Shown here piece by piece: positions 30,136-56,433 of a stretch of DNA of 64,000 bases (position 1 is its first letter; every line of letters begins with the position of its first letter). The stretch lies in contig CAISPO010000020.1 in the NCBI GenBank assembly GCA_903887415.1, positions 1 to 64,000 of the forward strand, written 5' to 3'. This DNA is from an uncultured Bacteroidota bacterium (GTDB lineage: Bacteria > Bacteroidota > Bacteroidia > Chitinophagales > Chitinophagaceae). The notes under the pieces were generated by a model. The model was not told the origin of the DNA. It saw nothing but the letters and a program-made list of their open reading frames with translations, and ran no database searches. The position numbers and the translations under genes are program-made.

Positions 30136-30546
30136 ATTCGTAATACTTTCCGAGTATATGAGCGGCTCAAGCGAGAGCAGCATATTCATACGCTTTTCCT
30201 CACCGGGAAAGCGTTTTCTGTTTTTCCCATAAGGCTCATTTACGTTCTTTTGCCCCGCACTGATGTCCCGATAGCTATCGGGAGCTCCCCCGTACAGGCT
30301 GGTTTTTCTGTGCCTAAGAAAAAGTTCCGCAGCTCCGTGCACCGCCACCGCATCCGCCGTTTGATGGTAGAAGCATGGAGGCTCCATAAGCACGCTATCT
30401 ACGAGGCCATGCCCCCAAACCAGCAAATGCACCTCTTCCTTATCTTCACTGACAATAAAATGCCAGACTACGAGCTGGTAAAAGAAGCTATTATCAAAGG
30501 CATAGAGAAATTAATAACGTTAGTAAAGAAAGAAGGCACTACATAA
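30136..30546 (+). CDS. rnpA: Ribonuclease P protein component, non-AUG start
   Basis: 136 aa if begun at ATT 30136 (then [14 protein letters not shown]). RnpA is the protein cofactor that helps RNase P RNA remove tRNA 5' leaders. The conserved basic block [20 protein letters not shown] is present. The frame is open from 30112 but has no ATG, GTG or TTG before 30250, and starting there would delete the conserved N-terminal third. ATT stands exactly where relatives have ATG, so an infC-like rare start or a point mutation is likely. A palindrome inside (30266-30283) encodes extra residues. Confidence 0.85.
30266..30283. repeat. 18-bp perfect palindrome inside rnpA
   Basis: TCCCGATAGCTATCGGGA equals its own reverse complement. 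It lies in frame inside rnpA, encoding part of the segment DVPIAIGS that sits between two conserved blocks. I recall similar palindromes as common intergenic repeats in Bacteroidota, so this may be a repeat inserted into a coding gene. Confidence 0.6.
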
Positions 30547-52405: not shown

Positions 52406-54875
52406 TTAGTGTTTGGTTTCCATCACTTCTATTTTTCCATGTTTTTTTAATTCATGTTCTTTATTCATCAAAAATATTAAGGGGGGTAACCAGTAGAATA
52501 AATGTAGATGAAGTGATTACGCCACCTATCATTGGTAAAACAATGGGTATCATTACGTCACTTCCCACACCGGTGCTCCATAGAATAGGAATTAAACCGA
52601 ATAAAGACACACATACCGTCATCAACTTTGGCCTTAATCTTTTAGCTGCTCCCGCAATTACATATTCCTTCAAGTCATCTCTGGTAATCGTGTCGCCCGA
52701 ATTTCCTTTTTTTGCCACCAACTGCTGCATTGCATCATTCAGGTAAATAACCATTACGATATTTGTTTCCACCGCTAATCCAAATAATGCTATGAAGCCA
52801 ACGGCGACAGCAATCGAAATATTTACCCCCCAGAAATAGATCATAAAAGCACCACCAATGAGTGCGAAGGGTAGGGAGATAAGGCTGAAGAATGCTTCAC
52901 GGAAAGAATGGAATGCAAAATACATCAGAACAAAAATTATAGCCACCACCACAGGCAGTATCATTTTTAATGTTTTTTCGCCGCGAATCAGGTTTTCATA
53001 ATTGCCACTCCAATTCAGGTAGTAACCTTTGGGCATTTTCTTGATCAGTGCGTTTAGCTTTTGCTGCGCGTCTTCTACCGTGCTGGCAAGGTCTCGTTCC
53101 CTCACATTAAAAAGAACAGAGCCTTTTAGCATCGCATTTTCCGAATTGATCATTGGTGGCCCTTCTGTGATTTTTATATCAGTAACTGCCGAAAGTGGTA
53201 TCGGGCCGAAGCCCATAGTTTGCACCTGTAGTCTCTTAACCGACTCAAGATTGTCACGGAAACTTTGGGCAAAACGCATATTTACTGAAAAGCGTTGGCG
53301 TCCTTCAACGGTAGTTGTAAGCGGCATTCCCCCCAGAGCGCTTTCTACAACTGTATTTACATCATCAACGCTCAATCCGTACCGGCTGATTTCATCCCTT
53401 TTAACCGCTATATCAATATATTTTCCGCCGGTAATGGGTTCCACATACAGGTCTTTAATTCCCTTGGTTCCTTCAAGGGCCTTTTTTATCAGTTGAGAGA
53501 ACGCATATATCGTATCCAAATTTTGGCCGAACACCTTAATGCCAACATCTGTCCGTATCCCCGTAGAAAGCATATTGATTCGATTAATGATTGGTTGCGT
53601 CCAGCCATTTATTACGCCAGGGATCTGGAGCATTTTGTTCAAATTATTAATGATACTGTCTTCCGTAAACCCTTTCCTCCACTCACTTTTTGGTTTTAGC
53701 ATAACAATAGTTTCCACCATGCTGATGGGCGAATTGTCGGTTGCGGTATTTGCTCTTCCTACTTTGCCCAAAACGTTCTTCACCTCGGGAAATGACGCTA
53801 TGATTTTATCCTGTACCTGCAATAGACGTTTAGCCTCAGAGTTCGAAATATCAGGCAGCATTACAGGCATAAATAAAAGAGAACCTTCATCAAGCGGTGG
53901 CATAAACTCACGCCCAAGGCTCATTACCAAAGGAATGCCGACAACAAGCGCCGATATATTTACGACAAGCGTTATCCATCTTCTTTTGATACACGCCCTG
54001 ATAACAGGTTCATATATCCTTTCCAGTACACGATTCACAGGGTTAACATGCTCCGGTAAAAATCTTCCTTTCATAAAAAACGAAATGATAACAGGTGCCA
54101 GAGTTACTACCAGTATTGCATCGACCGCCATAATGAAGGTTTTAGTAAACGCAAGGGGATGAAATAATTTACCCTCCTGACCCGTTAACAGAAACACTGG
54201 CAAAAAAGAGGCAATAATAATTAAGGTCGAAAAGAATACCCCTCTTGATACTTGTATACAGGATGCCTTTATCAGTTTCATTCTGATATCTTCCGGTATT
54301 TTCCGATAAGAAGCTTTCTTGACACCCGATCCTTGTTTTGACTTGTTTAGAAAATTCATAATCTAAATATTTTCGGGTTCATCACTGTTTTGCCATTCTG
54401 ATAGCCTGCGATAAGCGTTTTCCGACATAATTATTCCATTATCAACAATTACCCCGATTGCTATGGCAATACCGGTCAACGACATTAGATTGGAGGACAG
54501 GCCAAATGCATTCAGTAGAATAAAACTGATGGCAAGCGTAATAGGAATTTGTATAATAATGCTGACTGCACTACGCCAGTGAAAAAGAAAAACAAGCACA
54601 ACGAGGGAAACTACAATCATCTCTTCTTTAAGTTTTCCAGTTACCGTTTTAATGGCAGCTTCTATCAGTGCGCTTCTGTCATAAGCGGTTTTAAATGTTA
54701 CACCTTCCGGCAAACCTTTTTCGACCTCTTTCATTTTTATTTTTACAGCTTTAATTACATTGTCTGCATTCTCTCCATATCGCATCACTACAATTCCACC
54801 CACTACTTCTCCAGTTCCATTTTCATCAAATATTCCACAGATATCCAGCAGACGAACACTGATAGGTGTGTTCAG
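52406..54875 (-). pseudogene. cusA/czcA-type heavy-metal RND pump, decayed
   Basis: About 820 codons of the roughly 1040 of a CusA-type permease. Three lesions: (1) the first 200-odd residues are missing, with homology starting at GIFDENGTGEVVGG; (2) an in-frame TAG at 54363-54365 after SDEPENI; (3) a one-base insertion in a run of six C (52481-52486), so the frame ends NIFDE instead of continuing in the next frame as LIFLMNKEHELKKH to a stop at 52406. Recognisable parts include GIAIAIGVIVDNGIIMSENA and GREFMPPLDEGSLLFMP. Confidence 0.85.
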
Positions 54876-54945
54876 TTATATCTGTGTACTTGTTAGAGTA
54901 CATACACACTTACCGAAGAATAATATAAAGGGAGTAAGTGTGTAT
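54836..54945. repeat. Three adjacent perfect hairpins at the broken end of cusA
   Basis: Hairpin 1: CACAGATAT/ATATCTGTG (54836-54886) with an inner GAACAC/GTGTTC stem. Hairpin 2: GTACT/AGTAC (54886-54901). Hairpin 3: ATACACACTTAC/GTAAGTGTGTAT (54902-54945), 12 bp perfect. They fill the gap between truncated cusA and the 299-aa ORF. They could be ends of a mobile element, a recombination site or a terminator. Confidence 0.6.
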
Positions 54946-55844
54946 TAACTAAATATAGTATAGAACTTTGGCTTTTCTGAAGGGTCTTTTCTTTGCTTCA
55001 ATAACGTAAAGCCTTTGGGGTTAGTGCCAGTTATTTTTAGCTCTATCGAATCACCCTTTGGAGTGTCCCTCCTTTTGGTAGTTTTGAAATAGAGTTTTGT
55101 CAGATGGACGACAGCATTTTCAGTGAGTGATTTAGTATTTATTCCTAAACCAGTTTCTGCAATTACTCCCTTCCATTTTTCTAATAGCTTCTCGCGTGTA
55201 AAAGAACTACCGGTTTTGAAATAGCGATTTAACTGGACTTTGAAATTATTGTTATCGTTCAGTGTAACGAAATTGGCTGCGGTTTTCAGGTTTTTGAATT
55301 TCTTACTATCTCTTAATGACAGTGTTTGAAGAATTGTAATTATATCAGATCTTTCTATGTAGGGTGAGTACTCTACGTAAGTTTCCATAATAGTTCTCTC
55401 AATGTAGTTTAAATTATAACTTTTCAACTGTTCTCTTAGTTCTTCTATATCGGCGCCTACCACTTTATTTATTATGCTATTAACCAGCGCTGGCTTATCA
55501 ATCTTATCAGCCCTATTTTCAGCAACATGGATATTCGATTCACTGGCACCGAAAGTAATATTATGTTCCTCAGTCTTCAATGCTTCGACTAGTTGATACT
55601 TATTCTGATACAATTCGCTTCTAACTCGATACCCTTCTACACAGGCATCAATACTCAGATAGTTAACAGCTAATTTGCCGTTAATATCCTTTCTAAGAAA
55701 CTGTGCGCCTTTATCTCCAGTTTGATTTATTATAGTGTCTCTAATCTTTGATAGGTTAGATTCTAAATGAGGGTTTTTTGCGTAGTTAAAACTTATACAA
55801 TCCAGTCTCCCATGTGGACTACCAAAAGTGCCAAAAACACCCAT
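54945..55844 (-). CDS. Unrecognised 299-aa protein
   Basis: No signal peptide, no membrane span, no family recognised. It is Lys/Asn/Ile-rich, with predicted helices in the middle (residues 120-215, for example ADIEELREQLKSYNLNYIERT) and a basic C terminus (LYFKTTKRRDTPKGDSIELKITGTN). Base use is AT-rich like the cus fragment, unlike the genes on both outer sides. Lies between a cusA relic and tRNA-Pro, a common integration point. Could be cargo of a former mobile element. Confidence 0.6.
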   Translation of the reverse strand: MGVFGTFGSPHGRLDCISFNYAKNPHLESNLSKIRDTIINQTGDKGAQFLRKDINGKLAVNYLSIDACVEGYRVRSELYQNKYQLVEALKTEEHNITFGASESNIHVAENRADKIDKPALVNSIINKVVGADIEELREQLKSYNLNYIERTIMETYVEYSPYIERSDIITILQTLSLRDSKKFKNLKTAANFVTLNDNNNFKVQLNRYFKTGSSFTREKLLEKWKGVIAETGLGINTKSLTENAVVHLTKLYFKTTKRRDTPKGDSIELKITGTNPKGFTLLKQRKDPSEKPKFYTIFS

Positions 55845-55922: not shown

Positions 55923-55956
55923 TAAAAAAACCTGACAACCAATTGATTATCAGGTA
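55923..55956 (-). terminator. Terminator after tRNA-Pro
   Basis: Minus strand: ACCTGA/TCAGGT stem with further inner pairing, then a run of T, starting about seven bases after the tRNA 3' end. Confidence 0.7.
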
Positions 55957-55962
55957 TTTCTG

Positions 55963-56036
55963 TCGGGAAGACAGGATTCGAACCTGCGACCACATGACCC
56001 CCAGCCATGTACGCTACCGGGCTGCGCTACTTCCCG
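55963..56036 (-). tRNA. tRNA-Pro (anticodon GGG)
   Basis: 74 bases folding as a cloverleaf: acceptor CGGGAAG/CTTCCCG, D arm GCGC/GCGT with loop AGCCCGGTA, anticodon arm CATGG-CTGGGGG-TCATG (anticodon GGG), T arm GCAGG-TTCGAAT-CCTGT, discriminator A. The CCA end is not encoded. It aligns throughout with bacterial tRNA-Pro. Confidence 0.95.
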
Positions 56037-56040
56037 AACT

Positions 56041-56285
56041 TTACAAAACACTTATATCCTGTAAATATCGTTTCATACCCCGGTTTTTAATTTTTTTCTC
56101 TAAAACTACAGCTTCACTTCTTGAAGCGCAATCAATCATTTTATTTTAACCCACGGTATGCCCTTGGATGTAAAATTTCCTTTCCCGCTATTATGTTCTA
56201 CGATTCTTTTAACAAAATTACCCGTAGAGCCTACATAATATTTATCTAAAGAACTGCTATATAATATATAAACTACAAATTCCAT
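56041..56285 (-). pseudogene. GIY-YIG nuclease gene, frameshifted, next to tRNA-Pro
   Basis: Starts MEFVVYILYSSSLDKYYVGS (Y-I-L...Y-V-G core of GIY-YIG) with TGNFVKRIVEHNSGKG, the second motif. The frame ends PWVKIK-stop, while the next frame supplies the normal ending DCASRSEAVVLEKKIKNRG to DISVL (stop 56041-56043). One A missing in a run of four near 56145 explains it; 245 bases is one short of 82 codons. The start codon abuts a partial tRNA-Pro copy, and the stop lies five bases before the intact tRNA-Pro. About 81 aa when repaired, a normal length for this small nuclease family. Confidence 0.8.
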
Positions 56286-56347
56286 ATCCAAACCTGCGAC
56301 CATCCCGCTCCTTAGCGGGATACGCTACCGGGCTCCGCTACTTCCCG
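56286..56347 (-). tRNA. Degenerate partial tRNA-Pro copy (relic)
   Basis: Matches the intact tRNA-Pro over its 5' acceptor strand and D arm with one change, and again over TGGTCGCAGGTT of the T arm. It has a different anticodon arm (TCCCG stem, eight-base loop) and a changed T loop (TTTGGAT). Everything after the T loop is missing: the GIY-YIG start codon stands there instead. Cannot form an acceptor stem, so not a working tRNA. Confidence 0.65.
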
Positions 56348-56433
56348 AAAACCAATTGGTTTTCCTTTATTAAGGGGCTGCAAATATAACGGTAAAAAGT
56401 GTTTAGGGCAAATCTATTGTTTGCTAATCTGCC

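Follow-up and report, generated by a model that had tools for sequence, protein, structure and literature searches.

What is a gene for a GIY-YIG nuclease doing between a partial and an intact copy of one tRNA gene, and does the arrangement recur elsewhere? A locus in the window, the 64,000-nt stretch of DNA analysed here, raises this question. An earlier, sequence-only reading had taken the locus for a compact nuclease cassette that entered a tRNA-Pro gene and regenerated a whole tRNA. The locus lies on the minus strand, and all coordinates are those of the whole stretch. Read along that strand, a promoter-like element and a leader are followed by a dead 5' copy of tRNA-Pro, a GIY-YIG frame, an intact tRNA-Pro(GGG) and a terminator:

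56382..56413, minus strand: putative promoter-like element, TTTG-N20-TATATTTG, presumably of the Bacteroidota type (sequence; conserved in the alignment with the empty sites L040 and L041)
56286..56347, minus strand: dead 5' copy of tRNA-Pro, tRNA nt 1-61, ending in the T loop (blastn 77%; empty-site alignment)
56302..56321, minus strand: perfect GC palindrome ATCCCGCTAAGGAGCGGGAT, replacing the anticodon arm of the dead copy (sequence; same architecture in other dead copies)
56136..56285, minus strand: N-terminal part of the GIY-YIG nuclease ORF, 49 aa from the ATG at 56285 or 55 aa from the ATG at 56303, ending at a frameshift-induced TGA
56041..56139, minus strand: remaining, C-terminal portion of the nuclease (32 aa), read in a different frame; it includes the catalytic Glu region SEAVVLEKKIK and ends at the stop TAA, 56043-56041
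55962..56036, minus strand: intact tRNA-Pro, anticodon GGG (ARAGORN; Rfam tRNA, 59.4 bits)
55930..55955, minus strand: terminator hairpin 3' of the tRNA, then a T run

Both the intact tRNA-Pro and the partial copy, with the ATG of the nuclease frame directly after its end in the T loop, are as the sequence-only reading had placed them. That reading also recognized the T-loop break of the damaged copy (GGTTTGGATATGG in the dead copy, GGTTCGAATCCTG in the intact tRNA); it missed the copy's other departure from the intact tRNA, the palindrome at the anticodon arm. Its intact nuclease gene did not hold up. The frame stops at a TGA (56138-56136) and the part carrying the catalytic Glu, lost through the frameshift, continues in another frame, which indicates either a frameshifted relic or a 1-nt sequencing error; read together, the two frames match PF01541 with 45 bits. 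An intact nuclease can thus be ruled out here and, a sequencing error at the lost base aside, the local gene is a relic. The gap between nuclease stop and tRNA, given earlier as five bases, is four when counted from the out-of-frame stop. An Rfam scan of the window returned tRNA only, so that the nuclease lies within neither an intron nor an intein. Directly 3' of the tRNA, a 299-aa ORF (54945-55844, minus strand) had no Pfam, NCBIfam or PADLOC match. Further along, an AcrB-type efflux gene is broken (52461-54803, minus strand), with two ORFs matching PF00873 positions 421-1015 and 283-417 and the first 280 positions missing.

Alignment of the flanks with relatives lacking the insertion supports an insertion into the tRNA gene. 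Two empty sites from the same genus (L040 in G028, L041 in G022) have the promoter and leader of the window and, immediately after them, tRNA-Pro. Their alignment with the window extends over promoter, leader and the tRNA 5' part that corresponds to the damaged copy, and since it includes the dead copy, it is this copy that holds the original tRNA position. In the window, the dead copy and the intact tRNA start 311 bp apart, which is the size of the addition, and a whole tRNA was regenerated, as had been proposed. Occupancy is patchy: only two of the genus's 28 tRNA-Pro(GGG) loci, in the window genome (G000) and in G033, contain a GIY-YIG gene. In G033 the nuclease differs from that of the window and the promoter has been duplicated as well, which suggests that the two insertions at the same tRNA-Pro are independent. 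At another locus (L062, G031:C8), a solo dead tRNA-Pro copy and a duplicated promoter stand upstream of an intact tRNA-Pro, with no GIY-YIG gene; this copy is likely a scar.

We sought to assess how far this association extends. Within the genus, a search with the nuclease yielded about 60 matches, spread over 29 of the 35 genomes, and nearly all proteins of the 80-90 aa type were encoded beside a tRNA on the same strand. A profile built from 13 of these proteins matched 208/296 genomes of the class and 147/196 of the family, and with a second profile 94 of 148 genomes from the phylum were matched. Taking the best locus per genome and counting as adjacent any nuclease gene at most 250 bp from a tRNA, we found adjacency at 27/30 loci in the class set and 26/28 in the family set, always on the strand of the tRNA. 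The loci from genomes elsewhere in the phylum followed this pattern in 17 of 20 cases. Named hosts include Chitinophagaceae, Mucilaginibacter, Marinifilum, Crocinitomicaceae, Saprospiraceae and Ignavibacteria. In the same genomes, none of 30 control genes for a UPF0213-type GIY-YIG protein lay near a tRNA. This comparison (53/58 vs 0/30, Fisher p about 1e-18; random expectation about 0.8%), together with the recurrence of the layout at tens of tRNA loci, rules out chance adjacency, and the control likewise rules out tRNA proximity as a general property of GIY-YIG genes. The statement of the sequence-only reading that small GIY-YIG ORFs in Bacteroidota often lie next to tRNA genes is thereby confirmed by count.

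The same layout at non-tRNA sites, named beforehand as evidence that would weigh against this reading, was not generally encountered. We inspected seven loci at which no adjacent tRNA could be called, and six retained clear tRNA fragments. Of the five that came from the class and family sets, every one but L113, which has at most a weak T-arm-like stretch, has such fragments accompanied by a palindrome or the 3' end of a tRNA. At two loci (L010 and L012), a cassette and a dead tRNA-Ala copy occur with no tRNA beside them; the left junction falls in the TTCTCCAC of a tRNA 3' end, downstream of an apparent convergent gene, and relocation via microhomology is possible. Carriage by phages or plasmids is unsupported, as phage and plasmid collections gave no cassette match and viral contigs a single weak one.

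The units share a simple anatomy. They measure about 310-460 bp and the GIY-YIG gene is their only ORF. Most follow a layout that mirrors that of the window and that the sequence-only reading had not described: an intact tRNA and its terminator are followed by the GIY-YIG gene, a dead 3' tRNA copy and a further terminator (class A; for example L011 and L140). In class B, to which the window, L028 and L031 belong, a dead 5' copy precedes the nuclease gene and the intact tRNA. Dead partial copies flank intact tRNAs of some 15 amino acids, and solo dead 5' copies, at times in tandem, occur upstream at L015, L022 and L070. Identity to the intact neighbor falls along the 5' copies (n = 54) from 98% over nt 1-25 to 51% over nt 61-75; along the 3' copies (n = 72) it rises from 66% to 98% over the same two stretches, reaching about 99% from nt 57. 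By these profiles both types of copy meet in the T loop, so that the break seen in the window is a feature of the whole family. The ends of class B 5' copies spread more widely (nt 39-74) than those of solo 5' copies.

Class A units also form tandem arrays, likewise beyond what had been noted before. L134 (G134:C9:904800-911800) consists of ten near-identical units of a GIY-YIG gene and a tRNA-Met fragment with a period of 457 bp, and arrays of four units at L140 (period 322 bp) and three at L137 (period 345 bp) occur as well. Nuclease genes and tRNAs also overlap. Of 149 ORFs, 59 have their stop codon within a tRNA or a copy of one, and for 13 of these the tRNA concerned was called intact; frequent positions are the TAG of nt 8-10 and the D loop. 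This is the same microhomology as that described below for a phage enzyme. Some ARAGORN calls near GIY-YIG genes (L112, L119, L161) are hybrids of tRNA copies.

The encoded protein, about 80 aa long, consists of the GIY-YIG domain alone and has no DNA-binding domain beyond that fold. The catalytic positions Y6, Y17, R27, H31 and E63 are invariant, and an AlphaFold model predicts a confident single domain (83 residues, pLDDT 91). The nearest solved structures are UPF0213 (1zg2, E 4.7e-15) and SLX1 (about 7e-9), with I-TevI far behind. The UPF0213/YhbQ-type and Slx1 domains are thus closest in both sequence and fold; however, the UPF0213 control genes do not share the tRNA association, and the cassette nucleases fall outside their clade, the ten control rows forming a separate group of the tree (support 88) apart from the tRNA-linked clades. 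In this tree of 119 proteins, the identity of the tRNA at the locus changes 41 times, against a mean of 91.1 after shuffling (0/200 as low), with labels somewhat blurred by the hybrid ARAGORN calls. Lys(TTT), Asp(GTC) and Ser(GGA) each occupy one tree group across several genera. Nuclease lineages thus appear loyal to one tRNA, a pattern that old vertical inheritance could explain in part. Since dS is saturated, only pN and pS are informative, and pN was well below pS in every pair compared (Lys, 0.13 vs 0.88; Arg(TCT), 0.21 vs 0.73). Judged by these values, the nucleases are under purifying selection.

Considering these features together, we read the window locus as the decayed form of a minimal chromosomal mobile cassette, one of a family whose members combine a lone GIY-YIG gene of about 80 aa with a duplicated part of one tRNA gene and probably home by cutting the T arm (estimated probability roughly 0.68). 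The T-loop break, the rebuilt tRNA, patchiness, decay, arrays and tRNA loyalty jointly point to homing. Under this proposal, the nuclease would cut the T arm of its own tRNA gene in alleles that lack the cassette, and homologous repair from a cassette-bearing chromosome would copy the cassette in. Because the cassette would bring the missing tRNA part with it, one full tRNA would always be rebuilt and a dead partial copy left behind. Two ways of insertion at the T-loop break could give rise to classes A and B, and misaligned repair of breaks at occupied loci could produce the tandem arrays.

A precedent exists in SegB of phage T6, a free-standing GIY-YIG enzyme encoded beside tRNA genes that cuts inside tRNA genes at RAWTSGAAC, and whose cutting, with recombination, amplifies tRNA-segB in tandem by way of microhomology that links the 5' end of the tRNA with the 3' end of segB (PMC13096335). 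By our reading, this motif would be the reverse complement of the T-arm sequence GTTCSAWTY. The cassettes thus resemble SegB of the T-even phages in their position by tRNA genes, the T-arm-like motif and the tandem amplification of tRNA and nuclease. SegB, by contrast, is larger and phage-borne and shows no preference for a tRNA isotype (PMC13096335), whereas the cassette nuclease is an 80-aa lone domain on a bacterial chromosome that is loyal to one tRNA identity and sits inside a cassette that rebuilds this tRNA. We drew this likeness from the published description of SegB; in a tblastn search with one 83-aa member as query, no phage record was found at 1e-5. With free-standing GIY-YIG homing genes in general, the cassettes share the catalytic residues, occupied and empty alleles, independence of introns and inteins, and target loyalty. 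Our best reading is therefore that they are a variant of such genes that would work in the manner of SegB.

Several observations sit less comfortably with homing. The intact tRNA of the window is identical to that of the empty site L040 and should therefore remain a target. A lone fold without an added DNA-binding domain is odd for a sequence-specific homing enzyme, and its nearest solved relatives include the structure-specific SLX1, not I-TevI. The wider scatter of class B 5' copy ends is a further such point. An alternative, unlikely as we consider it, is that a domesticated Slx1-like structure-specific nuclease helps to repair or stabilize tRNA loci, the duplications being by-products and not a means of spread. 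The fold relationship and purifying selection are in keeping with such a role, as is the capacity of both palindromes and tRNA arms to form hairpins. Presence at only two of 28 tRNA-Pro sites is not, nor are the frequency of decay, of which the window is an example, the arrays of as many as ten near-identical units and the apparently independent insertions at one tRNA-Pro in G000 and G033.

The tRNA genes themselves bring site-specific recombination to mind, being classic integrase sites. Cassettes could be passengers of a tyrosine-type recombinase acting in trans, with class A arrays as attL/attR-like accretions and the GIY-YIG gene as cargo. Like tRNA-integrating islands, they use a tRNA gene, rebuild it, leave a residual 3' fragment and accrete in tandem; class A in particular resembles integration at a tRNA site, the element ending in a perfect 3' tRNA fragment. 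We nevertheless regard this as quite unlikely: unlike such islands, the cassettes have no integrase, their units of 310-460 bp are too small to code for one, and they come with both 5' and 3' fragments, of which the class B order with the 5' fragment first misfits the logic of att sites. It is also the nuclease lineage, and not a recombinase, that tracks tRNA identity. Very unlikely, in our estimation, is a role of the dead copies as RNA, in which hairpin-bearing tRNA mimics would serve as decoys, antitoxins or processing signals for an RNA-acting GIY-YIG enzyme, as in type III toxin-antitoxin systems. The resemblance to those systems is one of layout alone. Tandem dead copies do precede tRNA, terminator and nuclease at L070, L015 and L022, and a hairpin architecture that stays while its sequence varies would suit an RNA. 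Yet one side of the acceptor stem is missing from the copies, which also break off in the T loop, many loci hold only a dead 3' copy after the nuclease, and GIY-YIG enzymes are as a rule DNA nucleases.

Homing by T-arm cutting thus remains our preferred reading, and the chromosomal cassette family it describes is widespread in Bacteroidota and apparently undescribed. We found no description of such a GIY-YIG/tRNA family in the open-access full-text literature, preprints excepted, and the survey in the SegB study was limited to proteins of phages and archaeal viruses (PMC13096335). If the reading is true, SegB-like targeting of tRNA genes would be a common force on bacterial chromosomes that strikes essential genes, and no phage oddity. 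It would also explain many Bacteroidota genes annotated only as 'GIY-YIG nuclease family protein' and many tRNA pseudo-copies. The question it raises is how an 80-residue catalytic domain could choose one tRNA gene yet spare its own. A bolder version, tentative and in our view somewhat more apt to fail than to hold, is that no smaller autonomous mobile cassettes are known than this family, which would extend across the phylum. Here an 80-aa GIY-YIG domain, lacking a DNA-binding domain, would recognize one specific tRNA gene, perhaps from the hairpins that it can form, cut it in the T loop and restore the tRNA, and the palindromes at the anticodon arm would act as an immunity mark on dead copies. 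Should the 80-aa domain alone prove able to find one tRNA gene, the cassettes would be more than a variant of free-standing GIY-YIG homing genes.

The palindromes, finally, are a recurrent feature of the dead copies. The anticodon window contains one, with a stem of 6 or more, in 41/52 of the 5' copies and 52/68 of the 3' copies. This anticodon-window count and the identity profile serve better than a simple tally of palindromes, which is weak as a statistic given that stems of that length occur in 33/99 intact tRNAs too. From copy to copy the palindrome sequence varies, while the hairpin architecture and its position are constant. Their effect may be to rid dead copies of the recognition site; alternatively, they may be mobile repeats that favor hairpin loops. 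With REP-like palindromes they share dispersal through the genome: TCCCGA-N-TCGGGA, mostly TCCCGATAGCTATCGGGA, occurs 54 times in the genome of the window vs 4 times for a reversed control, with a site in the window at 30266-30283. They differ in that in most tRNA copies they are fixed at one place, the anticodon or D loop. A REP-like unit of GGTTCCCCGGAACAAGG followed by TCCCGATTTTTCATCGGGA was found at L090, L091, L092 and L097, and reversed at L093 and L100; its palindrome also fills the anticodon arm of tRNA-Lys dead copies. At L005, 3' of the GIY-YIG gene, a single dead tRNA-Ala copy carries palindromes in the anticodon arm, on the T-arm side and in the terminator loop, as though they had been entering hairpin loops.
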